A DNA stretch of 64,000 bases from Tritrichomonas foetus (Eukaryota; Parabasalia; Tritrichomonadida; Tritrichomonadidae): NCBI GenBank assembly GCA_001839685.1, contig MLAK01000749.1, forward strand, positions 1 through 64,000, written 5' to 3'. Below the pieces are notes generated by a model. It worked only from the letters and a program-made list of their open reading frames with translations, ran no database searches and had not been told where the DNA came from. Both the position numbers and the translations under genes were made by a program. This document shows positions 3,528 through 64,000 of the stretch, piece by piece; position 1 is the first letter of the stretch; each line of letters opens with the position of its first letter.

Positions 3528-4628
3528 TTATTTGTTTGATCGAGGAATTTTTGATTTTCTTGTTTTCTTTTCTTCCATTCCTTTCTCACTTGCAATAAGG
3601 AGGTCATTTGCATAGTCAAGTGCAGACTGTGCATCAACCAAATGAGGTGGACGGGATAGTTTGGAAATTGTGAATTTATCTTCGGACACTTGTGGAGTAA
3701 TTTGTCGGCGGGAATCAAGTTTGGGGGGTGGTGCCATTGTTTTTTTAGTCATTTTTGTTTGAGAATTTTGTATTTTTGGTTGTTTTTCATGTTTGGACGG
3801 CAGATTTTGTTTCGGTGGAGAATTCATTTTTGGATTTTTAGGAATTGGAACAAACAATTTATCTTCATCTGATGAATCAATTAAAAACATTTCTTGTTTG
3901 AACGGTGGCACAGCAGGTTTTCCTTGATTTACATTATCTGAGGAACTCGTAGAGGTCGATTTCAATGGATTTTGGTATTCAAACGAAGATTTTGGTGGAG
4001 GTTTTGTTTTCTGTTGTCTTGAAGACGAATTTTTTGGTTGGATGTTGACTTCGTAATTGTCACTATCATCGGATGAATCATCAACGAAAACCTGCTTATT
4101 AAGTATTGGTGGTTTATTGGATTGAGTGCTTGGTTGTTTACTTTGATTTTTGGTCGGCTTTTTGGCACGAATTGGAACAAATTCGTCACTGCTTGAGGAA
4201 TCGTCAAGATTGAGTTTCTTTGGAGGAGGATTTTGAATTTTCTTGACAGATTTTTTGGATCCTTTCTGTTCTAGAAAATCATCATTTGAAGATGAATTTC
4301 TTAAAGGAGAATTATTTGAAGATGAAGATGCATCACTTGGTTTCGCATTCATTTTCTTATTCATATTGTTTGGTTTTTTATTCATGTTTTGCATGATTTT
4401 ATTTTGGTGTTCTTCGTGATCAGATGAAGTTGATGAGCTGTTGTCATCATGTGATGATTTTTTCATAAGTTTCTTGTTTAATGGTGATTGATTTGATGGT
4501 TTGAAATTATTTGATTTCTTAACGGTAATTTTATTTCCATCTTCAGAAGATGACGAAAGGTGAATTGAATTAGCTTCAAGATTGAGTTTCCGAAGCATTT
4601 CTATATGCTCTAAATCAGATGATGACAT
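3528..4628 (-). CDS. Serine/lysine-rich low-complexity protein, probably the C-terminal part of the CARMIL-like gene
   Basis: A 366-aa frame of Ser, Asp, Lys, Pro and Asn runs with repeated acidic clusters such as DDSSSSDEFVPI, DSSDDSDNYEV and DSSDEDKLFVPI, which look like casein-kinase-2 type sites. No folded domain is visible. The ATG at 4628 is possible, but protein-like sequence (QKENEAKELIMSSSDLEH) continues upstream in the same frame back to a nine-A run at 4663-4671, where it meets the end of the 114-aa frame. I infer that the two were one frame, now separated by a homopolymer slip (real or sequencing). An independent gene starting at 4628 remains possible. Confidence 0.6.
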   Translation of the reverse strand: MSSSDLEHIEMLRKLNLEANSIHLSSSSEDGNKITVKKSNNFKPSNQSPLNKKLMKKSSHDDNSSSTSSDHEEHQNKIMQNMNKKPNNMNKKMNAKPSDASSSSNNSPLRNSSSNDDFLEQKGSKKSVKKIQNPPPKKLNLDDSSSSDEFVPIRAKKPTKNQSKQPSTQSNKPPILNKQVFVDDSSDDSDNYEVNIQPKNSSSRQQKTKPPPKSSFEYQNPLKSTSTSSSDNVNQGKPAVPPFKQEMFLIDSSDEDKLFVPIPKNPKMNSPPKQNLPSKHEKQPKIQNSQTKMTKKTMAPPPKLDSRRQITPQVSEDKFTISKLSRPPHLVDAQSALDYANDLLIASEKGMEEKKTRKSKIPRSNK

Positions 4629-4644
4629 GATAAGTTCTTTAGCC

Positions 4645-5016
4645 TCATTTTCTTTTTGTATATTTTTTTTTGTCGTAATCTTTTGGATTTGGCTTTATTT
4701 CATTATTTCTTGATCGATCGAAATCATCAAATGAACGATATTTTTCATGATTGATTTTTGGTTTCTTACGTGGCTTTAAAAGAAGTGGCGGGGCTTCTTT
4801 AACTATTTTTAGTGATGTTACTTTTCCAAAATCTGGATCATCATTTTCCATTAAATTATCAAGAGCATTTGGATCAATATTTCGAGTAGCAAGCTCTAGT
4901 GATGTTTGATCAACTTCTTGAAGCATTGTTTGCCCAAATTGAATTCTGGCTTTTTCATCATCAACATCTGAATCATGTCGATTGATCAATAATTTCTTCG
5001 TGCGCTGAATTATTGG
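4645..5016 (-). CDS. Acidic/basic linker frame, in frame after the stop of the CARMIL-like gene
   Basis: An open frame with no ATG near its start (only a TTG, then an ATG about 22 residues further in). It continues in the same frame as the upstream LRR gene, separated only by TGA at 5017-5019. About 124 residues read PIIQRTKKLLINRHDSDV onward, with acidic, then basic Pro/Lys-rich composition including LLLKPRKKPK. This is coding-like and is best explained as part of one larger protein. The TGA may be a sequencing error, a recent nonsense mutation or a readthrough stop. No domain recognised. Confidence 0.5.
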   Translation of the reverse strand, partial: PIIQRTKKLLINRHDSDVDDEKARIQFGQTMLQEVDQTSLELATRNIDPNALDNLMENDDPDFGKVTSLKIVKEAPPLLLKPRKKPKINHEKYRSFDDFDRSRNNEIKPNPKDYDKKKYTKRK

Positions 5017-52913: not shown

Positions 52914-53716
52914 TCAGCCTTCAGACAATTTTTTATTTCTTTCTTTGATTTCTTTGATATATTCTTTATTTATGTATCTCTTCTCAATGTCAACTTCAGG
53001 GCACTCAGGATACTCAAACTCTCTCACATCCTCGATTCTTCCTTTGCAAAATCGAGAAATCATTTTTTCCTCATTGAATTCATCATCCAAATAACCATTC
53101 TGTACGAATTCCATCATTTCTTCACGATATGGAACTTGGGTATAGTCTATAAAACGTTTATCAGCACCTTTGTGAAGTAAAAACGCAATTATTTCTTTAC
53201 AATTTCTCATTAATGCAAATTGAAGAGGTGTTTGTGAATCATCTCCATTCATGCATGCGTTAATATTTGCACCATTAACAAAAAGACGATAAACAGCATC
53301 AAAACAATTATTTGAGCAAGCAATGTGAAGTGGTGTTTCATGAAACAAATAAAGTATAATTCCTTGGCCACCAGTTATATCTATTTTAGCTTGATGTCTG
53401 ACAAGAAGATCTATCATATTTCCATCATTAACTAATGCGGCAAAATGTAAAGCTGATAATCCATAAATTTAAAAAATAAAACTGTTGGCTTATGAATTAT
53501 ATCAGGATCATTTTCATGTTCTAAAAGAAAAAGTGCAATTTCAGGCCTATTCAAATAAACACAAAGTATTAAAGGAGTTGGATATATAAGATTGACTTTA
53601 TTTCCTGGGAATACAAAAGGAACAGGAATTTTTGTCAATATGTTTGCCATAGGACACTTTTGTAAATAACTGATATTATTATCAACAATGCTTTTCCCAA
53701 TTCGAAGTAAAGTCAT
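52914..53716 (-). CDS. Short ankyrin-repeat protein with two small inserts
   Basis: Starts MTLLRIGKSIVDNNISYLQK. First repeat TPLILCVYLNRPEIALFLLE; then an insert of about 17-20 nt at 53,455-53,475 that shifts frame, after DPDIIHK. Next repeat GLSALHFAALVNDGNMIDLL, then an in-frame insert of about 21 nt at about 53,340-53,360, ETPLHIACSNNCFDAVYRLF, and a third TPLQFALMRNCKEIIAFLL. The tail (MISRFCKGRIEDVREFEYPE) has no further domain. The inserts occupy the same place as the larger ones in the other two ankyrin genes. If they are removed, a protein of about 255 residues with four repeats results. If not, the gene is broken. Confidence 0.55.
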
Positions 53717-53996
53717 TTTAATTTGAAAATTTTGTTTTTTGAGAATTTTGACCTAAATACTTCTATTGAAAGGTCAATAAATTGACTTATATTTGACCTT
53801 AAATTCATAATGGTCAAAATTACATGTCAAACTCAAATCTTCGAAAAGTTCGAGCGGCTTTATCGTTAACACTTTTCGATAATTTTACCTTTCATTTGAC
53901 CTTAAATTTGTATGATTAAAACAGTTATCACCATAATAGTTAACCATAAAATATAATATTTAACTAGGTTTGTTTGGATGAAGAAATTAAAGAAAA
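53717..53996. promoter_or_regulatory. Divergent promoter interval with two TTTGACCTTA motifs
   Basis: Lies between the ankyrin gene (minus) and the PDI-like gene (plus). The plus strand has TTTGACCTTA at 53,792 and 53,895; the latter is 102 bases before the ATG at 53,997, the same distance as before the CS-domain gene at 39,072. Confidence 0.5.
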
Positions 53997-59691: not shown

Positions 59692-60042
59692 ATTTTTTTA
59701 TTTTGAAATTGATAAACTTTTTCAATGAACGTTTGTATGGAATAATTATTTTTGACCATACCGGTTGATAAATTCACCTAAATTGTAATGGTTTTATCTG
59801 AACAAAATAATTGTGTAAAGTATAGAAAATTTGCCATCTCAAAATCTTATGATATCACTTCATTCCGTTTTTTTTTTAAAAAATCACTTTTCATTTCTTT
59901 GAAAAAATGAGAATTTCAGTTGTTTCCATATTGACAAATTTTAGAGTAAGTTTATCAAAAATTGTTATTTGGTGTTTTACATTAAAAACACGTGTAAAAA
60001 TCAAAAAAATATTTCGAGAAATGTAATCTAAAGGAAAAAAGT
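59692..60042. other. Divergent/3' interval, nothing seen
   Basis: Upstream of the exportin-like gene and 3' of the ankyrin gene. Contains AAAACACGTGTAAAA near 59,985, a CACGTG palindrome. No gene. Confidence 0.5.
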
Positions 60043-63000
60043 TTAGTAATCGATTTTCCCCATAAACAATTCTTTAATTTGTTCGTAATTTGAATTCATT
60101 CTTGCACAGTCAAGTGGCGTCCATTGAAAAGAAATCAAAAATTCCATGTGAGTATCACTGAAAATTATGAAAAATATTCAATAATATAGGGTGTCCGGTA
60201 ATGTGATGTCACTANGNATAATAAAGTNATTTCTAATAAGTCATTTTTTATTGATAAGTATTTCAAAATATGTAGTCTCCATTGGCATCAATAACTTTTT
60301 TCAGTCTATTTTGCCATTCTGCAAAAACTGAAAACAAAGTTTCCGATGGAATTTCATTGAAAATTTGGACTATTGTTTGAATCAAATGGCTTGGTGATTC
60401 AAAAACAATTCCTTTAACTTTTTCTTTAATAGTTCCAAATAAAAAAAAGTCGCTAGGCGCCAAATCAGGTGAATATGCCGGATGTGGAACTGATTCTAGT
60501 GAGTTTTCATTTATATATTTTTTGACAATTTTTGCCACATGAGGCTTTGCATTGTCATAATGAACAAATAATTTTTTATAATTATTCGAGTTTTTAAACT
60601 CAACAATTTTTGACATAATGGCTGTAATATAATATGCAGCATTAAACTTTTCATTTGGCGGCAAAACATCAATATGAATTATCCCATGAGGGTTCCAAAA
60701 TACAGTCACCATAAATTTAGTGATCTGAAACCCTGGATTTTGAATAGTTGGGATTACTGAGTTTTCAGGAATCCATTGTGTATTGAAATCAGTCTTGGAA
60801 TAAAACCAAGACTCATCTCCTGTTATTAAAAAGGTGAAATTAGTTTTTTGTTCTGCATTCAAAATTTTAAGAAGTTTTTTTGCCAATAAAACTCTATTGG
60901 CCTTTTGATTTTCTGTTAGAATATGTGGCACCCATCGAAGATGCACATGTTTATACATTAATTTTGATGTTAAACGATCATAAATTGTCGATTTTGGTTN
61001 GCAATATATCGACACGATGAATGTGGAAATTCGGTTAAAACATCTAAAATTTTCCAGTCAAGAATATCATAACTTTGGCACTTTTTCTCTTTTTTCACAG
61101 GCTGTGTGTTTTGACTTCTGTTCAGTTCTGCCATGACTCGGTAGATTTGTCTTTGAGACAAACATTTTTCTTTCAAGACACTCTTCATTTCTTCATATAT
61201 TTCTTTGCCCCTTTTTCCTTCAAGCTGCAGAAAAGTTATGATTGAATGTTGATCAATCATTTTTTAATAAACGTGCATCGTGTACGTTTATAAATTATTC
61301 TTTTTTTTTATGAAAAAGATTCTTTATCTCTATTTTCAGTCAAGAGAAAAAAAAATTGTTTTCAAAATTTTTATGTTAACATTGCATAGTTTATTATTTA
61401 TAAATATAATGTATTGATTTCACTTCTAATGTGGGTAGTGACATCACGCCTCCGGACACCCTATATTATCTCTGGTATTAATATCAATATCTGAATGTTT
61501 TAATAAAGCTTTAATGATTGTTATTGTTCCATTTTGGCATGCTATATGAAGAGGAGTCATATGAATATAATTCAAGAAACTCTTCATGATTTTTCGGAAT
61601 CAAACCATGAATAGAGAAAGGGAATTCTGTTTTTGACATTAATATCAAGAGTAGGTTGCTTTAATAATAATTTAACAATTTTCAACTGACTTTCACGACA
61701 TGCTAAGTGAAGAGGTGTCATATTAATCATAATTAAGATTTTATATAACAAATAGAAATTTACTATGAAAAAATTAGTTGAATATTGTCTGATGCATTAA
61801 TTTCAATATTCGGATGTTTAAGAAATAACTTAACAATTTCAACATTTCCTTTTTTACATGCTTTATGAAGTGGCGTACTTTGAGTAAAAAATATAAATTC
61901 CTGCTATCATAAAGAAATCACAATGATGAAATGAACAGAATTTCTTGTTTAATATTCACATCTATATCCTTTTGTTTTAATAGAAGTTCCACTATTTTCA
62001 CATGACCATATTTGCATGCACAATGAAGTGGTGTTTTTTTAAAAGATAAACAATATTCCACACAAAAAAATGAAAATAACTATCAAATATTCACAAAAAC
62101 AATTTGGTATTTCGAGTTGACATTCACACCTGGTTGATTCAAAAGGAGCTCAGCAAATTCAACATGTCCAATTGTGCAAATATAATGAAATATGGATTGA
62201 TGATGTAACACAAGATTTTCAATTAGTTTCTTATCATTGCTCATTTGTGAATGACAAACATTTAATTCTTCTGTTAATTTCATATTTTCTGCCTTCAACA
62301 TAGAAATTTCATCAGTTAATGACATTAAATTATTTTTGAGATTATCGTTTTCATCAGTGAATTTTTGAATATCATCTTTTTGAGAAACCAATATTCGGTT
62401 TATAGACATGAGTTGAGAGATTAAAGGCTCTGGAAATATGAAATTATGCAATAAAGATGAATCATTTCTTATATGATCAAGTAGAAATTGCTTTTTCTGA
62501 TCATTGAGATCTTCCATTTTAATAAAGTGACATAAAATCTGAAATTTCTTCAAATCTGATACAATAAAATGATATAATAAATCTTGAGGAATGCTTAATC
62601 CTGTCTTTTCTAATATTCGATAAATGATTTCAACAGGAATATCTTTAAATAATTCATGTGGTAAATATAATTTTATATTTCCAACAATGATATTTTCAAT
62701 GATTTCTGGATCAAAACAACTAGCTCTAATAAACAATAGCTTCTCAGATTCATTTAATGTTAGAAGTGACAAATATTGTAACAAAACAAATGATGGGTCC
62801 ACAAAACATTCTTTAGCGTATTTATCAAGGACAGCTTGAAACACTTTTGTCACAAAAAATGAAGATAATTTCACAAATAAAAAATAACTTTCATTAGTGA
62901 CTTGAAACTTTTCGTTTTGATTAGCTTTAATAAATTCTTCAAGATATTTTAGTGTTAATGGATTTGTATATTTTTGTCGAATGCTATTAGATTGAGAATC

Positions 63001-63285
63001 AGTTGACAAGCCTTGATCAATTTGATCATAGTGAAGTATTTTTTGAAGATCTTTTGGCATTTTCCTTGAAATATTAAATTGTGTATAATGAATTCTAGCA
63101 TAGTTTGAATATTGTGCAAACTTAAAAAAATTAATATAGTAGTGATGATCACAAAATGTAACTTTTTGATATAATCCGGATTGGATAAGATCGTTCATAT
63201 TTCCATTTTCTGGAATCGAGATTCTTGAAACATCTCCTGATAAAATATATTCTCTTATCTCTGATTCAACAACTTTTTGTTTCAT
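60043..63285 (-). CDS. BTB-like/ankyrin-repeat protein interrupted by uniform inserts and a mariner
   Basis: The N-terminal block (about 385 residues, 63,285 down to 62,104) has the trichomonad pattern NPLTLKYLEEFIKANQ, FQVTNESYFLFVKLSSFFVT and a coiled coil near 320-350, ending in the first repeat (SIFHYICTIGHVEFAELLLN). Ankyrin repeats follow as separate blocks: KTPLHCACKYGHVKIVELLL; STPLHKACKKGNVEIVKLFL; MTPLHLACRESQLKIVKLLL; MTPLHIACQNGTITIIKALL; WTPLDCARMNSNYEQIKELF, stop at 60,043. Inserts lie at 62,037-62,103, 61,880-61,944, 61,722-61,786, 61,561-61,628 and 60,124-61,467; the last is 65 nt once the mariner and TA duplication are removed. The protein is otherwise free of decay, so the inserts are likely removed somehow, or the gene was disabled only recently. 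Confidence 0.7.
60187..61463. mobile_element. Mariner transposable element, 1,277 bp
   Basis: 28-bp imperfect inverted ends (TAGGGTGTCCGG, four differing bases, then GTGATGTCACTA) and a TA duplication on both sides (60,185-60,186 and 61,464-61,465). It carries one transposase on the minus strand. Undefined bases at about 60,215-60,228 lie just inside the left end. The size is close to known trichomonad mariners. It landed inside the last insert of the ankyrin gene rather than in a coding block. Confidence 0.92.
60263..61260 (-). CDS. Mariner transposase, split by one undefined base
   Basis: Starts MIDQHSIITFLQLEGKRGKE with an N-terminal helix-turn-helix (about 1-60). After CRYI an N at about 61,000 coincides with a frame change; on the other side the frame continues PKSTIYDRLTSKLMYK. 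The catalytic triad is present: GDESWFYSK (first Asp), HYDNAKPHVAK (second Asp) and, 34 residues on, SPDLAPSDFFLF (third Asp), giving the D,D34D signature of mariner. It ends DANGDYIF. Nothing else is broken, so the frame change is probably an assembly error and the enzyme may be active. Confidence 0.9.
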
Positions 63286-63687
63286 TTGAAGTTTGAAAAG
63301 ACTTAATGATTGAATAATTTCTTGTCAAAGAGATTGCCAATATTTGTGTGCATATCTGGCCAAATTTTTAATTCAAATTGAAATGTCACATTGCCCAAAA
63401 AACAGGTTTTAACATTTTTCCTTTTATGCAAGATATATGCATTAATATCTATTGAAGAAAATGCATTTCAAAAGTCTATCATGTATCAAAGTAAAGGAAT
63501 GAATTTAGGATTTCTAATTTTATCGAACTATGGATATCATGCTTAACAACTTTTTTTGATGATTATTTTGAGATTTGAACGATTAATTTGAATATTGCTG
63601 ACAATATATAGACTGAAACACTTGGGGAAGTTTTCTGTGTAAACAACCACTTATTCATTCAAAATTCAAAGAGAGTTTATTTGTGGA
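63286..63687. promoter_or_regulatory. Divergent promoter interval
   Basis: Between the BTB-like/ankyrin gene (minus) and the importin-like gene (plus). AT-rich; no coding. No known promoter consensus recognised beyond TCA-type initiators. Confidence 0.4.
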
Positions 63688-64000
63688 ATGGAAGAGGAGA
63701 TAGTCCAAATTCTATATAAAGCATTTGCAAGTACGAACAACGAAGGACCAAGAGAAGCAAAAGAAGTTCTAGATTCTTATACAACAAATCCCAATTTTTT
63801 TGCCGCACTTTTTAATATTATCAGAAACCAGCAATTGCCTTATTCGATTCGCCAAAGTGGAATTTCTGAATTAAAACGTCAAATTGTTACCAATTGGCAG
63901 GAAGTTTTTTCGCCGGAATTCAAAAAAGTAATATTAGATAATTTTCCACTTCTTATTTTAAATATTGAACCTTTATATAGGAAAAACATGGTGGCTCTTA
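63688..64000 (+). CDS. Importin-beta family protein, N-terminal part (runs off the window)
   Basis: The ATG at 63,688 opens a frame continuing to the window edge (about 104 residues): MEEEIVQILYKAFASTNNEG, PREAKEVLDSYTTNPNFFAA, IIRNQQLPYSIRQSGISELK, FPLLILNIEPLYRKNMVA. This is the N-terminal importin-beta (IBN_N) domain, as in importin-7/8. Nuclear import role by family. No stop or shift seen. It lies 3.7 kb from the exportin-like gene. Confidence 0.8.
   Translation, partial: MEEEIVQILYKAFASTNNEGPREAKEVLDSYTTNPNFFAALFNIIRNQQLPYSIRQSGISELKRQIVTNWQEVFSPEFKKVILDNFPLLILNIEPLYRKNMVAL

Follow-up and report, generated by a model that had tools for sequence, protein, structure and literature searches.

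How can a repeat protein be translated from a gene whose repeats are separated by inserts that mostly cannot be read through? This question is raised by an ankyrin gene in a 64,000-nucleotide (nt) stretch of the Tritrichomonas foetus genome, a parasite of cattle (contig MLAK01000749.1 of assembly GCA_001839685.1, positions 1 to 64,000; hereafter the window). The gene lies on the minus strand and extends from an ATG at 63285 to a stop codon at 60043. A 394-codon open exon is followed by four units of 32 codons with inserts between them, a fifth insert and a short terminal exon with the stop codon. Comparison with related genes suggests that each insert is probably a run of three ultra-short introns, removed from the RNA, around exons of 1 and 5 nt.

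Regular inserts between ankyrin units

The initial annotation had placed the inserts at a single point of the repeat, the turn before x-TPLH, and this was confirmed for all inserts of the window gene. Their lengths are regular, though slightly shorter than given there, as the four whole inserts measure 66, 62, 62 and 65 nt. The fifth insert is present as well, but it is interrupted by a mariner-type element of about 1.27 kb that had gone unmentioned. The 3' edges lacking AG were found as described.

The regular inserts are real and occur genome-wide. With the 32-residue unit as query, 150 scored matches among 554 candidates, often spaced by 157-160 nt, were obtained in the 63.7-Mb T. foetus draft assembly. 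Among named parabasalids, the actin of this assembly is matched best by that of Histomonas, at 91% identity. Junctions between successive units numbered 153 in the window gene and 20 fetched loci together, and 130 of them were 57-68 nt long. The 23 junctions outside this range were left out, as were three more from loci L049 and L056, and the remaining 127 inserts from 19 loci were aligned; one locus, L051, contributes a recent duplicate. The variable place and length and the missing common motif expected from simple decay are not seen in this gene type. The uniformity is restricted to it, however: in the ankyrin genes of L049, L020 and L036 junction gaps of 23-141 nt, many of which start with GTTT, occur at the same turn beside insert-free junctions. 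The most inserts seen in one gene were 14, in L039.

A DNA pattern built from the insert core matched the genome 39 times, compared to no match for the reversed pattern, and 17 of the matches lay outside contigs with already known arrays. Two of these 17 (L058 and L059) are ankyrin remnants or ends. Eleven were fetched, eight chosen for a T-rich-looking spacer and three without it, and four were left unfetched. Of the eleven, seven were scored as ankyrin units with more than 5 bits, L069 was ankyrin-like by eye and three were unrelated. Because the matches checked were either ankyrin or unrelated, there is no evidence of the insert beyond ankyrin genes. As far as seen, it appears to be confined to them and to have spread together with the unit. 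A search of the window and the loci with an insert-only profile was too weak to add to this (67 matches at E up to 1); two matches in a shuffled control were at least as good as its lone window match, at E 0.79.

As they stand, the inserts are non-coding. A frame shift or an in-frame stop occurs in 119 of the 127; the frame is shifted by 92, and among the 35 that keep phase only 8 are open. Insert lengths of all three phases are found in 12 of the 19 loci and of at least two phases in 18. Nevertheless the inserts are conserved, as columns picked on half of the loci showed 83.5% identity in the other half, compared to 45.7% in the rest of the insert columns; fourfold sites in these units reached 53.7%. 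Neither covarying base pairs nor a consensus RNA structure was found in the aligned inserts.

The adjoining ankyrin code is largely intact. An in-frame stop was present in the first 31 codons of only 6 of 149 insert-adjoining units, whereas simulations of neutral drift predicted 99-131 such units when started from the family consensus and run to the observed identity, and 90-121 when started from the nearest neighbour. Counted over their full length, seven units contain a stop, four of them last units, and in six further loci a single stop-containing unit was found among 31. For 28 gene pairs the median ratio of nonsynonymous to synonymous substitution rates (dN/dS), leaving out saturated pairs, was 0.47 in units and 0.40 in N-terminal exons. 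By these comparisons, selection acts on the ankyrin code. A selected code on both sides of an untranslated insert is what is expected of introns in general.

Three elements per insert and a codon split between them

The initial annotation had treated the insert as one block. The insert itself stands, but the alignment resolves it into three elements with two tiny, apparently coding spacers. Similar ends, RTT ... TTYAW, recur three times per insert, and by alignment most inserts consist of three elements of 18-20 nt each (Ia, Ib and II) with spacers of 1 nt and 5 nt. In alignment columns Ia is 18-20 nt long in 111 of the 127 inserts, and Ib and II are each 18-19 nt long in 115. Spacer 1 measures 1 nt in 114 inserts, 4 nt in five and another length in eight, whereas spacer 2 measures 5 nt in all 127. 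In the larger insert set the 4-nt spacers are represented by six rows from two loci. The internal TTCATNRTT block is almost ungapped. A TTTTTCAT-like motif noticed earlier is real, and 127 inserts in 19 loci align with it, but its end lies some 19 nt in from the 5' edge and not near the middle of the insert. In inserts 1-4 of the window gene the elements and spacers measure 22/1/19/5/19, 19/1/18/5/19, 19/1/19/5/18 and 19/1/20/5/20 nt. The features of the gene are as follows (HMM, hidden Markov model).

62104-63285, minus strand: N-terminal exon, 394 codons, open frame, with the first ankyrin unit (62104-62199, by HMM) at its end
62082-62103, minus strand: insert 1, element Ia, 22 nt
62081-62081, minus strand: insert 1, spacer, 1 nt
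62062-62080, minus strand: insert 1, element Ib, 19 nt
62057-62061, minus strand: insert 1, spacer, 5 nt
62038-62056, minus strand: insert 1, element II, 19 nt
61942-62037, minus strand: ankyrin unit exon after insert 1, 32 codons (unit search and HMM)
61923-61941, minus strand: insert 2, element Ia, 19 nt
61922-61922, minus strand: insert 2, spacer, 1 nt
61904-61921, minus strand: insert 2, element Ib, 18 nt
61899-61903, minus strand: insert 2, spacer, 5 nt
61880-61898, minus strand: insert 2, element II, 19 nt
61784-61879, minus strand: ankyrin unit exon after insert 2, 32 codons (HMM)
61765-61783, minus strand: insert 3, element Ia, 19 nt
61764-61764, minus strand: insert 3, spacer, 1 nt
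61745-61763, minus strand: insert 3, element Ib, 19 nt
61740-61744, minus strand: insert 3, spacer, 5 nt
61722-61739, minus strand: insert 3, element II, 18 nt
61626-61721, minus strand: ankyrin unit exon after insert 3, 32 codons (HMM)
61607-61625, minus strand: insert 4, element Ia, 19 nt
61606-61606, minus strand: insert 4, spacer, 1 nt
61586-61605, minus strand: insert 4, element Ib, 20 nt
61581-61585, minus strand: insert 4, spacer, 5 nt
61561-61580, minus strand: insert 4, element II, 20 nt
61465-61560, minus strand: ankyrin unit exon after insert 4, 32 codons (HMM)
60189-61461, no strand assigned: mariner-type DNA transposon within insert 5, about 1.27 kb, with short inverted repeats and TA on either side (ends by eye)
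60263-61015, minus strand: transposase open reading frame (ORF) in the mariner-type element (PF01359)
60124-60188, minus strand: rest of insert 5, with the end of Ia, spacer 60166, Ib 60148-60165, spacer 60143-60147 and II 60124-60142 (parsed by eye on the alignment layout)
60043-60123, minus strand: last exon, an incomplete ankyrin unit with the stop codon

The N-terminal exon scores below the curated cut-off of the Ank model, and its closest relative within this genome is on C297 (E 2.9e-23).

The ankyrin repeat turn has the consensus D-x-x-G-x-T-P-L-H. The exons end with K-D-N and the next ones start with x-T-P-L-H, which leaves the turn two residues short. Among 29 junctions without an insert at other places in the fetched loci, 19 have exactly two more residues (a gap of 6). 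Read as two codons, the spacer bases, six in all, often give (Tyr/Asn/Asp/His)-Gly, which corresponds to the missing residues. Ib splits the first codon between spacer 1 and the two bases with which spacer 2 begins; in 122 inserts this codon encodes Y 29 times, N 18, D 16, H 8 and others 51 times. The second codon encodes glycine in 71 of 122, with R, E, K, N and D together accounting for 47.

As the first codon is split by Ib, independent letters at its positions would often yield stops. Among the 122 inserts a single stop was observed, compared to 6.7 expected (P 0.0016; P 0.009 for 102 non-redundant inserts), and this count ranks third lowest among 757 column combinations. A held-out set of 41 inserts of the same gene family, one of them from the contig of L039, provided 37 that could be used and contained no stop, compared to 2.8 expected (P 0.019). 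The lone exception carries a 4-nt spacer, and no stop arises when the whole spacer is read. With the exception read in this way, the 159 of 168 inserts that had the columns needed contain no stop, compared to 8.8 expected (P 6.5e-6), or 6.0 if letters are exchanged within loci only (P 0.0002). When the register was shifted, the chosen one gave 3 joined stretches with a stop, compared to 8.6 expected. AATGGA read as a single 6-nt exon was rejected, as it showed no stop avoidance (5 stops, 5.3 expected).

The bases flanking Ib behave as one codon, as those around an intron do, and Ib would therefore be absent from the translated message. The stop avoidance speaks against both decay and ribosome hopping and for a joining of these bases in the mature message, and removal from the RNA is its simplest reading. 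The selected exons, the non-coding inserts with conserved columns, the three-part layout of the alignment and the stop avoidance are properties of the sequence. From them we infer that an insert of about 62 nt would be cut from the RNA as three introns of about 19, 18 and 19 nt, each starting with RTT and ending with TTYAW, with exons of 1 nt and 5 nt between them. Once joined, the spacer bases would supply the two codons that finish the ankyrin turn, and the frame would then run through the array. The exact cuts as placed here, and a dedicated or altered splicing machinery, are likewise part of the proposal.

Known intron classes and alternative explanations

The elements do not have the GT-AG ends of U2-type introns, as Ia starts with A in 77% and with G in 22% (locus-weighted) and the elements end mostly with T or A. 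No genome match was found for GTAYGT...CTAACNCACAG within the spacing range searched, 30-60 nt alone, and ACTAACACACAG was near background (17 matches, 11 for the reversed pattern). The trichomonad intron motifs, GTAYGT at the 5' end and CTAAC..CACAG at the 3' end, were not seen in the inserts listed. A candidate U6 small nuclear RNA (G000:C111:114355-114461; L081:1501-1607, minus strand in L081) was found with E 2e-7; its 40.8 bits fall short of the gathering score (44). It carries the usual ACAGAGA box, which suggests that a major spliceosome may be present. Of the spliceosome parts the searches covered U6 and U1; the Rfam model for U1 found none, the best match (E 2.2) being one of chance. 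U12-type introns have an RTATCCTT donor and a TTCCTTAAC branch site, whereas the inserts start with RTTTT and have no such branch box by eye. The non-conventional introns of euglenids also lack GT-AG ends; they depend on base pairing near their ends, in contrast to the T. foetus inserts, which have no covarying structure.

A single-nucleotide exon is known from a plant. Exons of 1 or 5 nt between introns resemble microexons, as described in the available part of PMC13149111, but in T. foetus many genes have such spacers at almost all of their ankyrin turns, with non-canonical ends on both sides. The element lengths are in the range of introns in Stentor coeruleus (15-16 nt; PMC9505925) and Bigelowiella natans (18 nt; cited in PMC12316389). 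According to the accessible text, the Stentor introns, unlike those proposed here, have splice sites usual for the major spliceosome, and that text does not speak of tandem runs around exons of 1 nt. Trichomonads have few introns according to the portion of PMC12316389 available, and these are of the GT-AG type with a fused branch site. Among the closest known counterparts of the T. foetus elements are the type B introns of Trichomonas vaginalis, 24 of the 63 introns known there, which are 23-25 nt long, have GT-AG ends with the CTAA branch site and the 3' end fused, and occur once per gene. They share with the T. foetus elements the very short length, the T-richness and the parabasalid host, and some lie in ankyrin or other repeat-protein genes. 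In contrast, the T. foetus elements measure 18-20 nt, have RT...AW ends without CTAAC and occur three per ankyrin turn.

The coordinated mechanism other than GT-AG splicing suggested by the initial annotation is supported, but two of the three mechanisms named there fare less well. DNA elimination has no support, although the inserts are short, AT-rich and regular like the internal eliminated sequences of ciliates. Trichomonads have one nucleus, the inserts are present in assembled genomic DNA, no direct repeat was seen at their ends and the base before the donor of Ib is free. Even with the many DNA transposons of T. foetus reported in the accessible part of PMC11415386, such elimination seems extremely improbable. 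Ribosome hopping over the inserts would be compatible with ends other than GT-AG and with stops inside them. Programmed bypassing of this kind is known from phage T4 gene 60 and from the byps of yeast mitochondria. It requires take-off and landing at codon boundaries together with structure, whereas here one base of a codon precedes an element and the other two follow it, which cannot be decoded codon to codon, TAA often directly precedes the landing exon and the inserts have no RNA structure. Since the codon is split across an element, bypassing is disfavoured and scarcely probable.

Very regular decay, in which the arrays are pseudogenes copied with their inserts by unequal crossing-over, would agree with the expansion of arrays as units and with the existence of decayed copies. 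It would also agree with the annotated proteins: with the N-terminal exon of L040 as query, 32 proteins were found, 31 of them annotated in T. foetus, of which 25 have 411-503 amino acids (search limited to 231-735), and of ten proteins read out, nine of them from T. foetus, 8 of these 9 stop by eye a few residues past an ankyrin-like unit. Such ends are likewise expected if the gene model stops within the first insert. Stops in the units are scarce, far below the neutral expectation, and this contradicts decay, as do the conserved insert columns and the stop avoidance in the split codon. Copies that have decayed look different, and we consider this explanation very unlikely. Removal of the whole insert as one longer intron, or of the part up to AATGGA and the last part as two, would make the 18-20 nt pattern a by-product of conserved internal signals. 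The nearly ungapped TTCATNRTT block could be such a signal, and the gaps of 23-141 nt at the same turn in L049, L036 and L020 point in the same direction. However, removal in one piece leaves the stop avoidance across Ib and the 4-nt spacers unexplained, and the two-intron version with AATGGA shows no stop avoidance. This explanation is unlikely, though the least so of the four.

Several observations weigh against three introns per insert. When the inserts were parsed from the weak end motifs alone, 53 of 127 regained the frame (6 with a stop), and shuffles parsed the same way did so in 201 of 635 cases, hardly a smaller share; the layout therefore rests on the alignment. Each end motif was found in 25-35 of the 41 held-out inserts, and the constancy of the 5-nt spacer is partly due to its position in a conserved block. 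A genome pattern search for single elements before NATGG..ACNCC gave one match and one in the control. Since the 127 inserts served to devise the split-codon test, only the 37 held-out ones are independent of it, and in one of these the second codon is a stop. The register 2 nt earlier is likewise depleted (17 stops, 21.4 expected, P 0.007). Registers 1 and 2 nt later give 3 and 2 stops, few by composition and without depletion, so that cuts displaced uniformly by 1-2 nt are compatible with the stops alone. No branch-site motif is evident in the inserts, and their ends (RTTTTT) do not fit the U6 candidate, with pairing judged by eye. In the closest unit pairs dN/dS is near 0.9. In the chromosome-level annotation of strain KV-1 no gene has more than two exons, according to the available part of PMC11415386.

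Taken with these points, tandem ultra-short introns of an undescribed class are the most likely explanation of the inserts. That they form a distinct nuclear intron class of T. foetus, with 18-20 nt, RT...AW ends, tandem triplets around exons of 1 and 5 nt, hundreds of members in one gene family and a machinery other than the ordinary GT-AG spliceosome, is a real possibility that we rate slightly below even. If so, the L039 gene with its 14 inserts would have about 40 introns while belonging to a lineage described as poor in introns. Non-GT-AG introns of 18-20 nt around 1-nt exons would challenge the requirements of the spliceosome or imply another system of RNA cutting and joining, and this ankyrin protein family would be annotated up to the first insert only. 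The first T. foetus draft was annotated by a bacterial pipeline (accessible part of PMC12428144). A literature search covering titles and abstract openings, with subscription papers mostly outside its reach, returned no description of such inserts.

Elements at other junctions and further features of the window

Elements may also occur singly or in pairs. The junction gaps of L049 (G000:C448:65500-71500) range from 6 to 141 nt and several end with CTCAT. Four of them can be read as one 19-nt element each, and longer ones are perhaps arrays (by eye). One insert of L056 can be read by eye as elements of 18 and 17 nt with the third absent. Because of these one- and two-element junctions the elements look modular. 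A 21-nt junction in the triple-insert gene of L039 (L039:3813-3833) can be read as a glycine codon and a third element of 18 nt with an open frame, and might have arisen by loss of the first two elements. Among neighbouring ORFs with broken frames, two were found in the window, one of them with an element, and 12 in 34 other loci, two of them with an in-phase element, which gives no general signal.

No known RNA family reached its gathering score in 59700-63700, and no transfer RNA was found in the whole window. A few N letters lie close to the left end of the mariner-type element, and another N occurs at about 61001, within its transposase region. A second ankyrin gene of the window (52916-53752, minus strand) has a single frameshifting break at an ankyrin turn, which contains a 20-nt GTTTT...TTTAT element (53463-53482). 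Its downstream open frame matches Pfam Ank, and the upstream frame is without any match. At 3530-5016 (minus strand) open frames of 123 and 388 codons lie in different frames and overlap by 47 nt.
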